Assembly (NCBI GenBank): GCA_963969345.1
Contig: OZ017769.1
Span: 5,955,725-6,019,724 of the forward strand
DNA: 64,000 nucleotides
From: Turbatrix aceti
Lineage: Eukaryota > Nematoda > Chromadorea > Rhabditida > Panagrolaimidae
Reading direction: 5' to 3'
In this document: piece by piece, positions 668 to 63,192 of the stretch
Layout: every line of letters begins with the position of its first letter
Numbering within the stretch: the first letter of the stretch is position 1
Position numbers and translations under genes: made by a program
The notes under the pieces: model-generated
Seen by the model: only the letters and a program-made list of their open reading frames with translations
Told to the model about the DNA's origin: nothing
Databases searched by the model: none

Positions 668-6104
<5,437 letters not shown>

Positions 6105-50881: not shown

Positions 50882-53542
50882 ATGGATGTCGCATTCGCAG
50901 GCGGCGCCTTCGGGCTTTCAGAACGACAGAAGACGTTGCTCACAAATTTTCTCGATGCCATCCTCCGCATCCCTGGCGTCTTTCTCCTCGAAATGTGGTG
51001 GATCAAGCACGATGCTGCCGTTTCCGAGTTTAAAAATAAGATGCAGCAGAGCGCGTTGCCGAGGTACCTCGAGATGGCACACATCCTGGAGTTTGTTGAC
51101 AACCGCGACGTCGACACTGCTGCTGCTGGCATTTTGAGTTTTGCCGGTAAGATTTCCTGAATCGTGGAAGGGTTTCCATATTTTATTTCAGTACTGCTCC
51201 TGTGCGGGATCCTGATGGCGGTGCCGGTGACAAAGTTGCTCAAGCTCTACCTGCACGTGGCGTCTTTGCTGCTCTTCGCGCTAGCACACGTCTTGTCCAT
51301 CCGGTACGTGACCCTCGAAGTTGAGGACAACGATATTGAATTGAAGCTCGACGATTTAACAAAACTCGAGCGGCACGGATTTCATTTCCTGGCCCAGGTA
51401 GGCACTCAGGTTTTTGTTTTTTTTCAGCGTCTGACAAACTTTTTTAGCTGATGCTCGCCCTGACCCAATCAGTAATTCTGTCGATAGAGAGCGACGTAGG
51501 ACGCGTGGCGCTTGCCGTCTTCAGTTTGCCGATCGCGGCCCGCATGTGCGGCTGCCCCGTCAACAAGCTCATGATCGCGCACAACGTGGCGTGCTCCGCT
51601 ACCATGCTGCTCATCTCCATCTACGTGCTCAGCTACGTGCCCGTCTTCCTATCCTACCTGAAGCAGTGCACGAGGAAGGTGCGCTCCATCTTTGCCATTC
51701 GCGGCATCGGCGTCGGTGAGTCGGACCTTTGCAATTTTTTTGGGACCGAAGCGAACCCGAGTGCATATTAGGCGTGGTAAACATCTGGCAGCGACTGCGT
51801 ATCGCTGAGGTCCTAGCGATCTCGTGGATCTTCATGTTCGCTCTCCGGCTCTATAGCCAGGTGACTTCCAACGTGCTATCAATCGACACGGCTTTCATGG
51901 CTGCGGTGGCGGAGACGACATCGTCGCCCTTCACGCTTCTGGCACTGGCTCTGACTGTGAGCTATGTGTCCCACGCTATTGTTCAGCTGACCCAGCTCGT
52001 GCTTGGGAGCGAACTCGACAACGAACACGTCCTGGCAAACCAGGGCTACACCGAGGCGTTCACGCTTGTTTTTCTTTGCTGCCAGGCCGGAGTTTTGGGC
52101 ATGCACACGGAACAGAAGACGCTCATGCTCAAGCTTGTGCTCTTTATTGGTAAGTTGTGGATTGGATTTTAGTTCGCTCAGGTGTATGGACTGTTTTCAG
52201 TGCTCTCGGCATTGTTGCAGTCGCTCTACGAGATTCTCGAACCTCAGATGCTCGCTTTTTCGGCGTCTTCGAGGGTCACCTGGTCGATGCACGTCCGGGC
52301 ACTATCGTTTTCTTCGGTTCTCATGATCACGCCCGTTCTTATATCCGGCATGCTCATGGCGTTCCTTCCCATGGATTTGTGGTGAGTGAGGGTTCACCTG
52401 TCCGACCTGGCCCAAAATCCGAATTATTGGGTTCAAACCTGAAAAAATTCCAATTGGTAAAAAAATAGAAAAAAACCGTTAAAAATACCAAATTTTGGTT
52501 TCGAATTTGTTATATTTGTACAAACAATGCAAAAATTTAATAATGCAACGGTTTTAGGTATAAAAAAATTTGGATTCAGGTCAGATAAATTGAAATTTTC
52601 GAGTTCGAGTTCAGGTTCAGGGTGGATAATGTTTTAGGCACGGATTCGATTCCGGATCCGGTATTTCAAAAAATTTCCGAACCTGACAACACTGCTTGTT
52701 TCAGGTTTGTGATGATCATCTCAAACTGCCTTTTAACAACTGTGCGCTCAATTTCTACGACTGTCATCTACTTTATCCACATCGCCGAAAACCGCATGAT
52801 GACTCCGCTGGAGCGCTTCGACGACCTCGTCTTCCTCTGCAAAACCCTGACCCACCTGGCCGAATTCCTGCTTGCGCTGGTGGTCGTCTGCTACGGCGTT
52901 TACTCATCGCTCGTGCTCAGCAAGTACACGGTCTTTTCGATGGTCGTGCTCGTCTTCCACACGTATTTCAACGTTTACCGCCGCCTCAAGTCCAGCATCA
53001 TGGCCATCCGGACGCGGAATGCGGCTTACGAGAAGATCAACGCCTTCGACAAGCCCACGCCGGACGAGATCGCGGCCAAGAGCAGCGTGTGCATGATCTG
53101 TCTCGGCGAGATGGACGATGACGCGCGCATCACGCCCTGCAAGCACCTCTTCCACGGCTTTTGCCTCCGTAAATGGCTCTTCGTCAAGGCCGTCTGCCCG
53201 CTGTGCTACGTGAGTCTGGCCGACGGAATCAAGCTCTTCGGGCCTCAGGAGCCACAGTACATGTTTCGGCGAAGGCGGCAGGCCGAACTCAACGCGCAGC
53301 TCTTTGGCCCGTCTCACGACGACCTCCCGGAGCACCACGAGGCCGTCGATGGCTACGCGGACGACGCCTTTTCTTCTGCTTCGTCATCGGGTCTTGGCAC
53401 GACCGATAGCATCCAGGCGGGAGAGAGCGCGAGTCTGCCTGGCGACAGGCTCGCCTACGTTTGGGCGGCAAACTCGGAGTCTTCCGGCGAGGAGAGGCCG
53501 ATGCTCATCAACCGACGGGGTTCCCGGCACGGCACGACGTAG
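50882..53542 (+). CDS. Multi-TM RING E3 ubiquitin ligase, RNF145/RNF139 (TRC8) type
   Basis: ER-membrane E3 ligase of the TRC8/RNF145 group, which in animals controls sterol homeostasis and ER-associated degradation. Six exons: 50882-51146, 51192-51397, 51448-51715, 51772-52149, 52201-52381, 52705-53542; 711 residues, slightly longer than the human proteins. About 12-14 hydrophobic segments occupy residues 1-520. The cytosolic RING follows: C-x2-C (CMIC), C-x-H-x2-H-x2-C (CKHLFHGFC), LRKWLF, C-x2-C (CPLC), a C3H2C3 RING-H2 whose CKHLFHGxCLRKWL core is characteristic of this group. The Ser/Glu-rich tail is likely disordered. Introns are about 45-56 bp, apart from the last at 323 bp. The start at 50882 is the first ATG of the open exon. 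Confidence 0.92.
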
Positions 53543-54800
53543 CCACGCTAGGCACGTGTTTCTGATTACGAGTAGACGATGAACGACGAGTACGAGGCTG
53601 GGTTGACGTCACCGGTCACGCAACTGCAACTTTTTTTGCCCCGTTTTTTTGAAGCTTCTTGGTGTCATAAGTGCCTTCCTTGCCAGTATTTGTAATGCCG
53701 TCATAATTATTTTGCTTTCTATGTTGTTGGTATAAAAATATCGTTGTTGAGACTCTATTTAACGGTCAAGTTTGATGGTAGCGTGATTTGCAATGTTTCT
53801 GGCGAAGGGCAAGTCGTGCCCCACCGCTCACCTGTTTGCCGGCAACGAAATACGACTATCAAAACAGAGTTGGCAGGTAACACGACATCCGCGAGGTCAT
53901 TGAGCCTGTTATTGTTTGCGAAAACACCTTGCAGAGATCGTAGACCCCAGGGACACGGTGCTGGCTCGCTCTCAACTGGTCCTGTTTTTTTCGGCTGAGT
54001 GAGATAAAAACGGTCACTGTCGTTCCGTTTACTCTCTTCTCAATAAACATCTCAAAATTATTGTTTTCGACCCTGTGGCGACCATATCGACCATGTTTAC
54101 GTCCTTTCGTTTGAGCGAGCCCATGTTTACCTGGGAAATAATAGAAAAAAAAGGTGGCGAGAGAATCGAAGTCCGAGGGTTGGTGCCTCGCTTCAGGTGG
54201 CACGACACACATCAGAGACCTCGATTCGGCAAATTGAGGCAGACTGAAAGCGAATCGGACGAGATCTGTGCTCGCGACAATGGTCGTAGTCATTTCAACA
54301 CATTTTCATTCTCTGATGTCAGAGAATCAACTCATTTACATAAATTTTTCTCGAAAATAAGATAATGAGTCAATTTTGAGAGCACTAAATATATTTTCAA
54401 TAATTTTTGTTGAGATGTTGATTTCTAAAAATTATTCAAAATATATTTTCAATAATTTTGATGTATTTTCGACCAATTTTCTGTTGAGATGTTGATTTCA
54501 TTTTTAATTTTCTATTTTCATGCTTAAATGCTCAAAAATGTGTCATTTTCACACTTTTAAAAAAATCAGTGGATGTCGAAAGATGTCGATTTTTGAAAGT
54601 ATTATAAATAAATGTTCAATTTTATACACAATATACCTGTATACAATTATTGGAATAAAAGACTAATAGAAACGATGGGAAGAAGTGATAAAGGGAAACT
54701 CATAATGAAAACTATTCATCAAAACAGTGGATAAGCGAGGTTCTCAGGCCACATAATTGAACAAATATGTGTAACATAAAATTGCACTAAATCAAATCAT
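53543..54800. other. Intergenic region, RING E3 3' / chimera 3'
   Basis: 1.26 kb between two convergent genes; A/T-rich in the second half. Near 54387-54498 a unit containing ATATATTTTCAATAATTTT (54389 and 54440) and GTTGAGATGTTGATTT (54409 and 54483) is present twice. No gene recognised. Confidence 0.55.
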
Positions 54801-56184
54801 TTACTTTTTAATTAGTTCAAAGGTATCCTTATCCCAATCGATATCCAAATTAAGCTTCAACTTGCGCAACGAATCGATTCCCATAATGTTGACATGTTCA
54901 AAGTGCGTACCAACTCTGCTCACTTGACACTCGATTCGAGTCGACTGGTCCTGAATTTCATACAATATTACTTTCAAATAACAATAGTATGTATAACAAA
55001 CAAACCTGGATCGCGAATGGATAGTACATCCCGTCGACGACGTTTCCAGCTCCAAAGAATGCCTCCAGTGTCTTAACGCTCAGACACGTGAACGGACTTC
55101 CCGTGTCAATGAGACACCAAACGTTGATGACGGGGGAATCGGGTTTCCGGGACCGTTGGAAGGTCAAAGGGACCATTAGCCTAGAGTTCGGTCCATGCAC
55201 GATTCCTCGCACAGGAAAAGCGGGATCCGAGAACGTCCCTGGGCTCAAGTGTTTGACCTCCTCAGCAATTCCGATCTAAAACAACTTTTTGGACGTTTTA
55301 AAATAAAAATAAAAAAGCCTCGAAAAACCTTTTCCATCTCCACTTCGTTAATATCCGTGAGATTGATGTCGAACTCGTCATAAGGCATGGCCAACACGCC
55401 GAATGAACTGTCAATGTATAACTGGTTATGGCTATCCATACTTGACGATTGACGATAGCTTAACCGTCCAAACTCCCGATCTAAAAGTCAAAAATTTTGA
55501 AAGCAACATTGAGAGGAAAGAATAATTGGTGCTGTATTATAAACGACATACAAACTGGCGTCCACTCTTATAAATGCAACAATCGATAGAGAGAGAGTAA
55601 CTGGGACAAATGTGTGACTGTGCTCGGTCAGAGTCGCGGCGCGACTGTGTGCCACTGCGACGACGTCGACGTCGTTTCGTTCAAAGACAAAACTTTTTTT
55701 TTGTCAAAAAAAAAATCATCGCACTGGTTGTGTTCTGTCACGTTTGTTTCCTTGAATCAAGTTTGAAAGCAGTCAGACACTAAATAGACCACTCCCCTTT
55801 CTTGAAATAAAAAAAACACACATTTTGAAAAATCCCCGGAACCCAAACCACTCATCTTTCTATCGTATACCCCAAGTAACTCAATTTCAAGTGACTCACC
55901 GACATAGAATTCGGGAATATCGATGCTCATCCGCCGTTCGAGCATATCGGCCCTCTGAAGCTTCTCGTACGAAGCCAGTCGCCGATTCCACACCGGAGAC
56001 GGCAAGAAATCGGGATATATGAGCCTACAGTACACCCTGTTCAAACCATAAATCCGAAACTCAAAACCCACGGAAAGTCGCGGACCTTGGTCTGCCCAGG
56101 AACGTGCACCACTCTGCGCCTCGTGCCGCCACTGGACATAAGACGTCGACAGAGCAGCTGACTGAGAGCCGTCCGCTGCATCAT
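54801..56184 (-). CDS. Predicted chimera: MRPL19 N-terminus fused to retropepsin-like aspartyl protease
   Basis: Proposed five-exon gene, 269 residues: 56184-56072, 56024-55900, 55480-55329, 55275-55006, 54950-54801. Exons 1-2 are an inverted copy of MRPL19 exons 1-2 (basic presequence-like start, then [10 protein letters not shown] and the DMLERR...IPEFYVG stretch) with an intact GTGAGT donor in phase 1. The next acceptor (TGACTTTTAG) continues in phase 1 and in frame. The protease part, about 190 residues, has [14 protein letters not shown] with the catalytic Asp and [11 protein letters not shown], the hydrophobic-Gly-hydrophobic-Asp motif of retropepsins; one such domain would work as a dimer. 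No reverse transcriptase, integrase or gag is seen nearby. Alternative: the protease starts at its own ATG (55439, 176 residues) after trans-splicing, and exons 1-2 are a dead fragment. The protease exons are well supported; the fusion is an inference. Confidence 0.6.
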
Positions 56185-56272
56185 GTAGCCTACAAGAACA
56201 GCCAATTAGCAGGATTAAAAAGGACTCATTAATCAGGTTTCAAAAGGATTTTATATAAAAATTGAACGTAAA
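55640..56272 (-). repeat. Left arm of 633-bp inverted duplication (MRPL19 5' end)
   Basis: Near-identical reverse complement of 58174-58808, with a few substitutions and small length differences in homopolymer runs. It carries about 88 bp of MRPL19 upstream DNA, exons 1-2 and about 260 bp of intron 2. Both coding exons remain open; one synonymous difference was noticed in exon 1 (AGT versus AGC). Confidence 0.95.
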
Positions 56273-58173
56273 AAATCCGTTCCGAATAGCTGTACAGATC
56301 GATGAAATACCAAAGTGTACTCGGTTGCAATGCATTTTTGCAAATCAGAACTTTCAAAAGGTGTTACGGGGCTCAAAGTTAATATTTTTGCTCGGTATAT
56401 GGCTTCCTAGAATCCTGAGGACACGCCTGATTGATTGTGCTTACATACTTGTGTTTAACTTTAAAACTGACTTTGCAAAAAAGTGATAAAGTGAACACAC
56501 TATGCGCGCGCACAACCATCTTTTTTTGTGCCTGTGCCCGCATGCTGTGCATTGCCCCACTGTCCATCTGCGGAGCCTTGAGCCTTACAACTTAGCCATT
56601 CCAAAAGATTCGTCCCCGAATCAAATATGTAATCTCATCTTAAAAACGATGTGTTTTGTGCCTATTGATTAATAAAGTTTCTAAGTAAGTGAAAGTAACG
56701 CTGCACGAATTTGATTGCTATTGTAGATATTTGGTTGCAATCCTAAAAGCCAGGTTTCCAATAGTAAGTCCGCCTGCCCCTGCCTTTTCATTGTTTGTTC
56801 CCTGCGTCGTTTTCAACTTTTTCGACGACAGACAGGGTCGTTGTGAAAAATTGAACAATTTGCGGGACGCCCGACGACTCACTGACTGCTTTGCTCTCTC
56901 TGTGGTGGTTGTAAGTATAGTCCCGCATCGCCTGGTGTCTGGCAGTCCAGTTCCGTCGCAGTCAGCTGATGCAACGTGTCGCACAGCCGGCATCGCGGCT
57001 GCGAGGCTGTGACGAGAAAGGGGTACTCGAGAGGGGCGGAGCTTCGAGAGGGACCTCGCAAAAGCTCGCGACCTCGGGTCATGCGTGTCCGGTGCCCGCT
57101 GCTGTCAGCTGAGTCCGCTCCGAGTGGCCTCCCGACGTCAGGGGTTGTTAGCAGCACCGCCTTTGGGGTCTCTCGAAGGCGATCTGACTTGTCACCTGCC
57201 TGCTTCCCGGGTGCCGATCCAATCGTGTTTTGATTCTTTGTTCGTTTTCGTGCTTTAATTGATAAACGAGCCTTTGTCTGCCTCAGTCACGAGAGCGGAC
57301 TGCGAGATTGTCTGGTGACCGTGGCTGCAGCCGCCATCAAAATCCGACTTGAGGGCTTTTTTACCTGAGAAAGTGCACAGACACCAACTTTTTTTTTTGC
57401 TTTTGCACTGGATGACAAAAAAAACAAGTCGCGATATAAATTTTATATTTTTTTTAATTTGGACGAAACAGCCGGTTTTGATGCCGGAGATTGATTCATT
57501 TGCCGGCGCTGCTGTTTGTAAAAGTGACACTTTGCGTCGCCTTTCGCACGTCCGCCACCGCCACCGACCGCCACCGGCACATGCATAAGCGGGCGACAAA
57601 GGAAGCTGTTGTTTTCTTTGACCAATTTCGAGCGCCGCCGCCAGCAGCCCGGCCCTTCCTCTGGCCACGGCGTCTTTCCCTGGGCAACAAAGCGTGCCCG
57701 GAACAATTTTTGCAACTTGGCGAACAAAATCATGCCTCGAAAAAAAAAGAAAACATGAATTATCCCCTCCCGTGCACCATGCTGTTTCCCCACCTCTCCT
57801 GTCAGATCGATCCATGCCCCCAAAATTTTAAAAACTGCCATCCCCAAACCATCTCACCTCATTGATTCATAAAGTCACACAAAAAAGACGGTCCCTGGAA
57901 AACAGATTCTAGCCGGGAATGAATGCACGGATGAGCATTGCTCGCTCTGCAGACACACGACAGCACTGCCCCGGGCGAGCGCGTGCGTCGCAGTCATCGC
58001 ATCTCGCGGTCACATGTGTCGCGGACAGAGTGCATCGTCGGGAGAGGGGCCACAGACAAGCAAGACTCCGCAGTGATGAAAAACGAGAAAAAAGAAACCC
58101 GCAACTATCGGAGAACACTCCGAGCCTACAAAATGTCCTCCATTGTAGTAAAGTTTTTTTGTTCTTTACTTCG
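56273..58173. other. Spacer between the inverted arms
   Basis: 1.9 kb flanked by two divergent MRPL19 5' ends, so it may carry promoter activity in both directions. Frames are short and arginine-rich with no domain; the 56980-57190 stretch is GC-rich. No gene recognised. Confidence 0.5.
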
Positions 58174-58808
58174 TTTACGTTCAATTTTTATATAAAATCC
58201 ATTTGAAACCCGATTAATGAGTCCTTTTTAATCTTGCTAATTGGCTGTTCTTGTAGGCTACATGATGCAGCGGACGGCTCTCAGTCAGCTGCTCTGTCGA
58301 CGTCTTATGTCCAGCGGCGGCACGAGGCGCAGAGTGGTGCACGTTCCTGGGCAGACCAAGGTCCGCGACTTTCCGTGGGTTTTGAGTTTCGGATTTATGG
58401 TTTGAACAGGGTGTACTGTAGGCTCATATATCCCGATTTCTTGCCGTCTCCGGTGTGGAATCGGCGACTGGCTTCGTACGAGAAGCTTCAGAGGGCCGAT
58501 ATGCTCGAACGGCGGATGAGCATCGATATTCCCGAATTCTATGTCGGTGAGTCACTTGAAATTGAGTTACTTGGGGTATACGATAGAAAGATGAGTGGTT
58601 TGGGTTCCGGGGATTTTTCAAAATGTGTGTTTTTTTTATTTCAAGAAAGGGGAGTGGTCTATTTAGTGTCTGACTGCTTTCAAACTTGATTCAAGGAAAC
58701 AAACGTGACAGAACACAACCAGTGCAATGATTTTTTTTTTTTGACAAAAAAAAAGTTTTGTCTTTGAACGAAACGACGTCGACGTCGTCGCAGTGGCACA
58801 CAGTCGCG
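58174..58808 (+). repeat. Right arm of the inverted duplication (MRPL19 5' end)
   Basis: Reverse complement of 55640-56272. This arm is continuous with the rest of the MRPL19 gene, so it is taken as the source copy and the left arm as the derivative. Confidence 0.95.
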
Positions 58809-60957
58809 GCGCACGCGTAGTCACATCGGTCGCGTCGTCGCTTGCAGGCAACGTGGTTGTCGTTGTCGTTGTCGGCGGCCCAACGGCATGTACACGGGCT
58901 CACCTGCCATCTGTTCTTGCCCCCTTGCCTCAAACCATTGCCATTCTTTGAAAAAATAGAGCACGCAGTCTCCCATGAGTCTTTGTTCCTACGGATGCAT
59001 GGAAGACAACACTGCTTGCTGCCCCCGAGCTCTGATGTGAGTTGACGGATGCACGTTCTCGACCGACTAATTTGTCGTTCCGTGAGCCCACCAAAAAGAT
59101 TTGTGCCCATCCTGTTTATTTTAGGAACTACCGATGCTATTTATTTATTTTTTTTGTACAGTATCGGATGGTGGTGGTATATTTATATTTTCTGTGGTCG
59201 ACCACGGTCCCTGGCTGTTGTTGTTCGTTTTGTCGCTCAAGTCAGCCCAGTCAGCGTGCAATAGAGGGGATGAGTCTGCGCCTTGAAGGTAGGACGTAGG
59301 ACGAGCGAGGGGAGGAAGGGGGTCGTCCGCGGTCGTCATCCTGTGTAACAGGTTGGCGACGACGCTTGTTGGTCCCCAAGTCGCGGGACAGATGCATTCT
59401 CCGACCTGCCGGTTGTCTGTCATGTGCAAGGGGGTCTTTGAGTTTTTCACGTAGGTTCCCGGAGGGGTGGTCTCTCTCTGGATGCCACACACACAGCTTT
59501 TAAAATTGATGAACGTGTTTTGCTAGTTGATGCATGCTTTTCTGGGCTGTTTAGCAATCCATAAGAGACATTTGACGTTCGTTCGTGCGCCGGGTGAAAC
59601 CACCAGAGTTTAATACATACTACTCACAGGGGGGAACGGCGACCCTCCGCTGACTCATGGTCTTTTAGCGAGCCTAGTTCTGTGGTGGTTTCCGTTCCGG
59701 CAGAGCTATTTTTCGCTGCCTTGCTGCTCATGTCGTGTTTACAGTTGTTGTTTGGGTCTTTGGCGTGAGGAGAACTCCATCCCCCATCCCGTCTCTTTTT
59801 CGGCACGTTTCAGCGTTATCGGGAAACCAGCGGGGACGGACAGCAAATTTGCGTCTGCTTGGCTGGTTGGCCGGCGTCTAAAAATATCTAGCTTTTTTTG
59901 AAAAACAAGGGATGAGGACCGTAAACCATGTGCGTGGCTGTGGTTAGCGAGCGAGCGAGCGAGCGGAGCGAAGAAGCAAGAAAACGCGCTGCGCTATTTT
60001 TACCCAAAAAAACGGAAGGGATGAAAAATTTACTCGATTCCTGGCGCGGGGCGTTGCCGTTTGTTTTGAAGACGAAGACGCAGCCAGGCCGGGGTACCGT
60101 GACGGGGGACAGGCCAAGCAAGCACCAACGTCATGGCTAGCGAGGAATTGGGAACTGGCTTGCATTTGTGTATCTTGCGTCGTCAGTAAGCCGGGGCGCT
60201 TCATTTTCATTGTTTTGGGGAAAAAAGAGCCCTCGGGAGGCCGTAAAGAGCTCACTTTGGACACTTAGTGCACCTCACGAAAGTCTTTCCTTTTCCAGGC
60301 TCCGTGCTCGCAGTCACGACATCCGAGCGCAATGTCGCGACCCGGCAGAACCGCTTCGTCGGCATCTGCGTTCGTCGCGAGAGACCGGGCCTCTTTCACC
60401 AGTTCACGCTGAGAAATGTCATCGATGGCCTCGGCGTCGAGGTCATGTACGAGCTCTACAACCCGACTATTCTCAAGATCGAGACGCTCAAGCTGGAGAA
60501 ACGCCTGGACAGCGATCTTTCCTACCTCATAGACGCTCTGCCGGAGTACAGCACTTTTGACTTCAATCTCGAGCCCGTTGCCCATCCCACAGGCACGCCA
60601 ATCCCGGTGAACGAGACTAAAGTAAGCTTTTACCTGTCTGAAATTGCACGAACTGAGAGTATCAAATTGCAGGTGACACTCCGACCGCCGCCGTGGTCTC
60701 AGCGCTGGGAGCTCTACGACTTCAAGGGCATAGACAACGCCTGGCAACTCGCGACCCCCTACTACAAGCGGAAGCTAAAGATCACCAGGGTTGAAGACTA
60801 CCTCAAGTACGACCTCATCAGGCGCTACCGCGACGACTGCCAGGAAGTCGAATTCGAAGACCGAGTCCAGAACGAGATGCTCGAATTCGAAAAAGCCAGG
60901 CACGAGAGCGGTGTGACGAAGCGTCGCATCCTCAAGTCCGCTGCGGAGAGCATCTAG
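58262..60957 (+). CDS. mrpl-19: Mitochondrial 39S ribosomal protein L19 (bL19m)
   Basis: Component of the mitochondrial large ribosomal subunit, 281 residues. Exons 58262-58374, 58422-58546, 60299-60621, 60673-60957. N-terminus [18 protein letters not shown] is a probable mitochondrial presequence. The body has DMLERR...IPEFYVG joined across intron 2 to [11 protein letters not shown], then [18 protein letters not shown] and [17 protein letters not shown], and [10 protein letters not shown], all matching human MRPL19 in order. Intron 1 is 47 bp using acceptor TGTAG at 58421; an alternative acceptor (AACAG, 58409) in the same frame would add four residues. Intron 2 is 1,752 bp, exceptionally long here, and includes the end of the inverted-repeat arm. 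GTTCTTGTAG six bases before the ATG may be a trans-splice acceptor. Confidence 0.95.
58809..60298 (+). other. MRPL19 intron 2, part outside the repeat arm
   Basis: About 1.5 kb of intron with no nested gene that I can support; GC-rich stretches and short frames on both strands. It ends CCTTTTCCAG before exon 3. Confidence 0.6.
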
Positions 60958-61833: not shown

Positions 61834-63192
61834 TTAAGAGGCAGTCCACGACAGGATTTCGGACGACTGACAAGGCTTTTTTACAACTTCAAATGTTTTA
61901 AGCCAGAATTGTTTCCCACCCCTAAAAACCTCTAAATCACCGATGCACAGATTTTTAAACATATCGGATTCTGTAGTTTTGGCTTCTGGGAGTTTTTGAC
62001 AAAAATCGACGCCACGAGCTTCGCTATAGAGGAAAAATGCTGAAAATTTTATGAGAGGGGTTTTGAAGGACAGGGAACACGAAGTCGTATTCAGATATTT
62101 TTTATCTTTACGGTAATTGCTGATTACCGTATAAAATGTGTGGTTTTTTGGCCACCACAGACGGGGTTCTCCGAGGGGAGTACATTGTGATAGCACATCT
62201 TGTAGCCCGTGTTTCGGCGCTTTGAATGACGTAACACACGTGAAAAAGGAGTGACCGGAAAGCGGTCATCCATGGGCTTTTATGGCGCGCACTCAAGAAA
62301 ACGCGCGCGATCAGCTTCTTTTTCTCTTCAAACGAGCGTGCGCGCGCATAAAAGGAGTCATGTTCCAAAAAAGGCCCTGAAGCCAATTTTTGTTTTGTAC
62401 ATCCACGGTCACTTTGGTAGGCTTTGGCATGTCCCAGATATAACTTTAAGCCACGCGCACCTTTTATCGGATTATTTTGCACAAAGTTACAACGTTTGAA
62501 AGTTTCATGTTTTTTCATTGCCTGTGGCGATGCCCAATATTGTCAGATAAAAAGCCTGAAAAGCTAGAATCAATCTTTGGGACATGCTAAAGTCTACCAA
62601 AGTGACCGCGAGCATAAAAAAACAAAAATGGGCTTCAGGGCCTTTTTTTGAACATGACTCTTTTTATGCATGCGCGCGCCCGTTTTTTGTCACTTGAAGC
62701 GAAATTGCGCGCGTTTTCTTGAGTGCGCGCCATAAAAGCCCATGGGTGACCGCTTTCCGGTCACTCCTTTTTCACGTGTGTTACGTCATTCAAAGCGCCG
62801 AAACACGGGCTACAAGATGTGCTTTCACAATGTACTCCCCTCGGAGAACCCCGTCAGTGGTGGCCAAAAAACCACACATTTTATACGGTAATCAGCAATT
62901 ACCGTAAAGATAAAAAATATCTGAGTACGACTTCGTGTTCCCTGTCCCTCAAAACCCCTCTCATAAAATTTTCAGCATTTTTCCTCTATAGCGAAGCTCG
63001 TGGCGTCGATTTTTGTCAAAAACTTCCAGAAGCCAAAACTACAGAATCCGATGTGTTTAAAAATCTGTGCATCGGTGATTTAGAGGTTTTTAGGGGTGGG
63101 AAACAATTCTGGCTTAAAACATTTGAAGTTGTAAAAAAGCCTTGTCGGGCTCTCCCCCTTATCCCGAAATCCTGTCGTGGACTGTCTCTTAA
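61834..63192. mobile_element. Palindromic fold-back element bounded by TTAA
   Basis: Nearly the whole 1.36 kb is an inverted repeat: left arm 61834-62435, right arm 62579-63192, loop about 143 bp. The ends read TTAAGAGGCAGTCCACGACA and its complement with one mismatch. TTAA at both edges fits either the tip of the repeat or a TTAA target-site duplication as in piggyBac-type elements; TTAA is itself palindromic, so the two cannot be told apart. Arms differ by substitutions and small indels (for example at 63148-63165), so the element is not brand new. No transposase is encoded; open frames within the arms are mirror images and not genes. Confidence 0.8.

Follow-up and report, generated by a model that had tools for sequence, protein, structure and literature searches.

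An inverted copy of MRPL19 leader exons beside an apparently mobile retropepsin-like protease gene in Turbatrix aceti, and its possible use as a mitochondrial presequence

We analysed a 64,000-nucleotide stretch of the genome of the nematode Turbatrix aceti (contig OZ017769.1, positions 5,955,725 to 6,019,724 of the forward strand, assembly GCA_963969345.1), referred to below as the window and numbered from its first letter. On its minus strand the window carries a small protease gene directly downstream of copied 5' exons of MRPL19, the gene for a mitochondrial ribosomal protein. Our best explanation, to which we assign a probability of about 0.5 as a whole, is as follows. The protease (55480-54801) belongs to a nematode family of dispersed genes for single-domain retropepsin-like proteins, a family that would move between species as well as between genomes. 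A recent inverted partial duplication would have set the 5' end of MRPL19 directly upstream of it, on the same strand and with a frame that fits. Plain protease would be made from its own 5' region, through a spliced-leader trans-spliced or short-leader message starting at 55480. Some chimeric message would join exons 1 and 2 of the MRPL19 copy to 55480 and encode a 269-aa protein with a mitochondrial presequence. The family, finally, would repeatedly take on host 5' exons, mostly those of genes for mitochondrial proteins. The gene structure, the reading frame, the membership in the family and the N-terminal extensions of homologs are observed; from these we infer horizontal transfer of the protease as well as transcription, splicing, mitochondrial import and protease activity at the window locus.

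Results

In the T. aceti genome (59.9 Mb in 28 contigs), the original MRPL19 gene has its best match in Panagrellus redivivus, at 82% over 88% of the query, which would place the host near Panagrellus. Its 5' end recurs in inverted orientation upstream of the protease: positions 55636-56272 match 58174-58812 at 99% identity over 637-639 nt, and a comparison with the whole genome found MRPL19 5' sequence only in these two arms. Five substitutions and one 2-nt poly-T indel separate the arms (listed for 56272-55640), and the 238 coding nt of the copy show a single, synonymous difference from the original. Judged by its sequence the copy is recent, and a single synonymous difference in the copied exons is too little to demonstrate or exclude selection. 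Arms so nearly identical and inverted might also be a foldback error of assembly or sequencing. We give that reading very little credence: the arms lie 1.9 kb apart and differ by the five substitutions and the indel, and the copied arm ends at the borders of repeats Y and Z (Table 1), which recur elsewhere in the genome. The arms were also considered as a source of hairpin RNA and rejected as such, since the two sense promoters would point apart and no tested evidence favours a hairpin.

MRPL19 homologs (DFPLIYPDF) fix the borders of intron 1: exon 1 ends in ...GACTTTCC, the intron runs from gtgggt to ctgtag, and exon 2 opens with GCTCAT. A donor after ACCAAG was discarded because it yields stops and the homologs give other borders. 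Joining 55900 to 55480 creates the codon GAT, followed by 13 open codons up to the ATG at 55439. The predicted chimera combines 238 nt of MRPL19 exons with 572 nt of protease exons and is open throughout its 810 nt (269 aa). A scan of 55899 to 55470 covered 11 [CT]AG sites; the best pyrimidine tract, with 9/12 positions, belongs to the acceptor at 55481. The first-pass annotation of this DNA had described the inverted copy of exons 1-2 with an intact phase-1 donor at 55900, and its exons, frame, GAT junction, 13 codons and 810-nt total are correct to the base. The fusion protein predicted from splicing of 55900 to 55480 is plausible and agrees with a pattern in the family (below), and we put a chimeric transcript from the locus at about even odds.

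That annotation had further proposed that the copied exons offer a probable mitochondrial targeting signal. The N-terminus they offer is indeed that of a mitochondrial ribosomal protein. By simple composition, it has no acidic residue in its first 35 positions and six R/K residues in its first 30. The proposal is strengthened by homologs of the protease with N-termini from NDUFS3, mtHSP70 and ATP synthase b, described below.

Fifteen loci of the protease family were found in the genome. We modelled the fold on the Caenorhabditis remanei homolog P0001 from an alignment of 41 sequences (pLDDT 89.3), an earlier 12-sequence model being unusable at pLDDT 37. The model is a single retropepsin domain, and its structural matches are headed by Rickettsia retropepsin and Ddi1 domains. 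By this modelled fold, which is that of a homolog and not of the window protein, the family would belong to the retropepsin-like aspartic proteases (clan AA). Identity to Ddi1 and the Rickettsia retropepsin-like protease is about 11% over the fold; the window protein also lacks a ubiquitin-like domain, has another N-terminus and matches no Pfam or PDB sequence at E values up to 10. For some homologs there are matches below the curated cut-off to Asp_protease_2, gag-asp_proteas or RVP, and a search of viral contigs with the single window protein returned no relative. The window protein has the catalytic motif DTG. In family alignment A4, 18 of the 39 rows with letters at this site read DTG and five read DSG. 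The catalytic Asp is gone in seven of the 39, including C. briggsae and C. nigoni (STA), and some members may have no protease activity.

Long N-terminal extensions occur elsewhere in the family. From 1957 candidates with lengths of 97-308 aa, a range that longer fusions exceed, a profile search recovered 67 relatives. In 21 of the 66 homologs that could be placed the beginning of the core is missing; 10 have at least 54 residues before it. We set aside three of these 10 (P0185-P0187, divergent and with an unrelated extension), which leaves 7 of 66 with long extensions. Two of the seven, P0149 and P0155, have an NDUFS3 N-terminus, with matches at E 3.4e-5 to solved structures and at E 6.7e-11 to the host NDUFS3 frame (PF00329). 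They lie on contigs of 1042 and 923 bases, and both read across the two positions at which the genomic copies have introns, which suggests that they derive from spliced RNA. Their NDUFS3 parts are identical at 72 of 83 positions and their protease parts at 88 of 163. The likeness of the leaders could stem from gene conversion, from stronger constraint on this part of the protein or from two captures. P0144, from Ditylenchus destructor, carries the N-terminus of mtHSP70 (E 2.8e-10). In its extension, the mtHSP70 start seems to be joined to an HSP90-middle-like piece (E 6.8e-6), giving a two-chaperone mosaic. P0141 begins with the N-terminus of ATP synthase b (E 5.9e-8 against a host frame with PF05405).

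On a 43-row tree, in which support is low for several branches, eight changes are needed for the eight extended rows, the window included. On the assumption that 5-20% of genes encode mitochondrial proteins, at least three mitochondrial donors among the four identified would arise by chance with a probability of 0.0005-0.027, a post hoc figure uncontrolled for expression level or annotation error. It is plausible that the window chimera is one instance of a recurring process in which a mobile protease captures leader exons from its hosts.

Several observations, in the family and at the locus, weigh against this interpretation. The P0141 N-terminus is unlike a presequence, with three acidic residues in its first 30. 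P0137 perhaps carries SEM1, which is not mitochondrial, and the match is weak (PDB E 1.8; Pfam E 0.01, below the cut-off). No donor was identified for the basic leaders of P0156 and P0158: an assignment of the P0156 leader to an ATPase inhibitor was not accepted (best match E 0.044), and the P0158 leader has no match in the host genome and one weak, unrelated match in PDB. P0141, P0144, P0137, P0156 and P0158, which come from Ditylenchus destructor, Acrobeloides nanus, Panagrolaimus sp. JU765 and C. tropicalis, may all be gene models without transcripts. The extension counts describe one protease family. Upstream of the T. aceti paralogs L048 and L040 there are no host exons, only repeats or local duplication. 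At the window locus, the amphipathic moment of the chimera N-terminus (0.33) is slightly above that of plain members (0.25-0.31). An in-frame, open join would be expected by chance with a probability of about 0.14 for a random leader of equal length and composition. The protease, moreover, comes with a conserved 5' region of its own: a TATA-like motif, the 55481 acceptor and the start codon are shared with paralog L039, which lies on another chromosome and is free of MRPL19 sequence.

Comparison with L039 also bears on how the locus would be expressed. The 5' region (55412-55599) may act as the promoter of the protease, and plain homologs from Caenorhabditis and Halicephalobus start at the Met equivalent to 55439. 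The first-pass annotation had the protease gaining a promoter from MRPL19, a claim that finds no support here. L039 has this 5' region at 89% identity with no MRPL19 sequence, and the plain homologs begin at the corresponding Met; the MRPL19 fragment was therefore added later, and the protease does not need it as the source of a promoter. On the strength of the same start position we rejected the MRPL19 exons as an ancestral part of the protease. The L039 leader (47 nt) is likewise in frame and is closed by a TGA, whereas the window leader (41 nt) is open. The chance of about 0.14, the best pyrimidine tract and the open leader are each a weak hint of a functional join. Because the join may be due to chance and the protease can start from a 5' region and ATG of its own, we regard the splice from 55900 to 55480 as predicted only.

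The sequence around the two genes is assembled from repeats (Table 1). The MRPL19 arm sits between repeats Y and Z. At paralog L044, too, the protease lies between repeats X and Y, in the order seen here, and both repeats are shorter in the window than in their other copies. The left flank (53500-54287) is single-copy. The facing pairs formed by part of repeat Z elsewhere may be the inverted ends of a DNA transposon. Taken together, 54288-56551 looks like a mosaic that insertion or template-switching repair might have produced.

Table 1. Positions of the MRPL19 gene, its partial copy, the protease gene and adjacent repeats in the window
Feature	Positions	Strand	Remarks
Repeat X, dispersed, on the 3' side of the protease	54288..54598		ends at 54288; other copies share about 40 nt more to the left
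Protease exon 3, stop codon	54801..54950	-	homolog alignment
Protease exon 2, catalytic motif DTG	55006..55275	-	homolog alignment
Protease exon 1, 41-nt leader and ATG at 55439; leader frame into ATG open	55329..55480	-	
Conserved 5' region (TATA-like motif, acceptor, leader, first codons)	55412..55599	-	89% identical to paralog L039 on chromosome C2
Repeat piece Y	55599..55634		97% identical to a piece upstream of paralog L044; ends where the MRPL19 copy starts
MRPL19 inverted partial copy (about 90 nt upstream, exons 1-2, start of intron 2)	55636..56272	-	matches 58174-58812
MRPL19-copy exon 2, phase-1 donor after 55900	55900..56024	-	borders from homologs
MRPL19-copy exon 1 (presequence)	56072..56184	-	borders from homologs
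Repeat Z, part found elsewhere as facing pairs	56272..56551		genome repeat matches
Original MRPL19 gene	58262..60957	+	exons 58262-58374, 58422-58546, 60299-60621, 60673-60957; Pfam Ribosomal_L19 E 8.9e-15

The two genes may instead be accidental neighbours. The MRPL19 fragment would then be dead filler from break repair or template switching among X, Y and Z, and the protease would be expressed from its own 5' region, trans-spliced at 55481, with no chimera. We take this seriously and judge it a strong contender, if somewhat less than an even bet. The truncated repeat pieces that build the region fit it, as do the conserved 5' region, the chance level of the frame match, and the youth of a fragment whose intactness shows no selection. 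It has to reckon, however, with the homologs that carry host leaders in several nematodes, so that the family tolerates or profits from such joins, and with a donor and a best acceptor that face each other with no obstacle between them.

The locus could instead be silent, a decaying copy of a repeat-associated family that is held off by small RNAs and makes neither plain nor chimeric protein. Its repeat-rich surroundings would suit this. Relative to L039, the window copy also lacks the first coding intron and the five codons after MDSHNQ, and a 5' remnant of the intron, near 55412, now reads LYI. We nevertheless consider silence improbable, as the frame, the catalytic DTG and the splice sites are intact and the 5' region is well conserved.

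In the reading that we prefer, the protease moves between species. The window protease is identical to the C. auriculariae protein at 142 of 159 positions (89%), to that of C. remanei at 135 of 176 (77%) and to that of C. briggsae at 110 of 168 (65%); against Halicephalobus the figures are 60-69%. Paralog L039 reaches 92% with C. bovis (104/113). Within T. aceti, the window protease is 43-54% identical to the other paralogs on the tree, except L039 (81%). Host MRPL19 is 60-67% identical to that of Caenorhabditis species (C. bovis, 60-65%), a comparison that leaves C. auriculariae MRPL19 outside.

In the 43-row tree, seven T. aceti rows stand for the 15 loci; near-copies were omitted, and L045 and L046 were dropped as divergent. 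Four of these rows pair with a Caenorhabditis row: the window (96/78), L039 (93/80), L040 (97/90, starred) and L044 (98/77, in a starred trio). The partners of L048 are C. angaria and a metagenome protein (95/92, starred), and L042 and L050 have none of this kind. The approximately unbiased test rejects the T. aceti rows as one clade (p 0.0004), the Caenorhabditis rows as one clade (p far below 0.001), and the window and L039 as sisters (p 0.0002, for a pair picked after the tree was seen). Because the protease is 89-92% identical to Caenorhabditis proteins against 60-65% for host MRPL19, these data point to horizontal transfer of the protease between distant nematodes. Old paralogy with losses could account for the intermixing of rows and hardly for this difference in identity.

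A possible link to Mavericks lies near paralog L044. An integrase-plus-chromodomain frame is located 2.6 kb from it (rve E 9.4e-17, Chromo 3.5e-10), and double-jelly-roll frames are nearby (PF21738 E 1.8e-24 and 3.5e-16). At L050 and L051, a stretch is 72.5% alike to part of this integrase frame. The polymerase family PF03175 has two matches in the genome, neither near any of the 15 loci. No Maverick gene was recognised beside the protease of the window, in a scan that covered the open reading frames of some of the loci. The region of L044 and L064 (C1:6043700-6060600) is a Maverick-like stretch beside a protease paralog and also contains a 683-aa frame with no Pfam match; the stretch lies among P450-like frames, so named by eye. 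At L047-L049 (C1:9973500-10016300), carnitine acyltransferase exons form repeated units together with copies of the protease.

Two further features of the window lie apart from the protease. Just downstream of MRPL19, a second large inverted repeat (61869-63146) comprises arm pairs of 443 nt (98%) and 67 nt (90% complementary). Positions 4814-5152 hold a long simple repeat, which reads as poly-Arg or Ser-Pro in the list of open reading frames.

Discussion

Widen and colleagues are said to have described, in 2023, nematode proteases borne by Maverick/polinton elements and named 'wosp'. The T. aceti family resembles them, by description, in being a multi-copy nematode family with its closest kin in Caenorhabditis, and one of its 15 loci (L044) lies near frames that may be of Maverick type. 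Passages from two reviews report that Maverick-associated 'wosp' proteases were transferred between nematodes (PMC10680173), and that Maverick-borne proteases spread between nematode species and that the toxin of a toxin-antidote element arose from a Maverick-associated protease family (PMC12941216). The wosp proteases are not mentioned in these passages as capturing host leaders, and their catalytic type is not given there.

We found no paper on captured mitochondrial leaders in the protease family in a search of titles and abstract openings, with most subscription journals outside its scope. The closest precedent comes from plants. In Populus, according to the relevant passage of PMC8018952, the plastid transit peptide of nuclear rpl32 came from SOD1 by exon shuffling. 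As described there, that case is like ours in that a coding region is joined to the leader of an organelle protein whose nuclear gene had been duplicated. It differs in that rpl32 is a former organelle gene going home, whereas in nematodes a mobile protease without known organelle ancestry would draw on several donors.

A broader reading, which we hold tentatively and at a little under even odds, is that a horizontally moving, Maverick-associated protease has repeatedly been made mitochondrial through host 5' exons (NDUFS3, mtHSP70, ATP synthase b, MRPL19) and acts in host mitochondria, possibly in genetic conflict. The literature passages cited here do not state where Maverick-borne proteases act. 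If members of the family repeatedly acquire mitochondrial leaders, that would point to the mitochondrion as one site of their action, a prediction that is directly testable. If true, this would be an animal example in which the gene that gained organelle leaders is mobile and moves horizontally, and is not a former organelle gene now in the nucleus.
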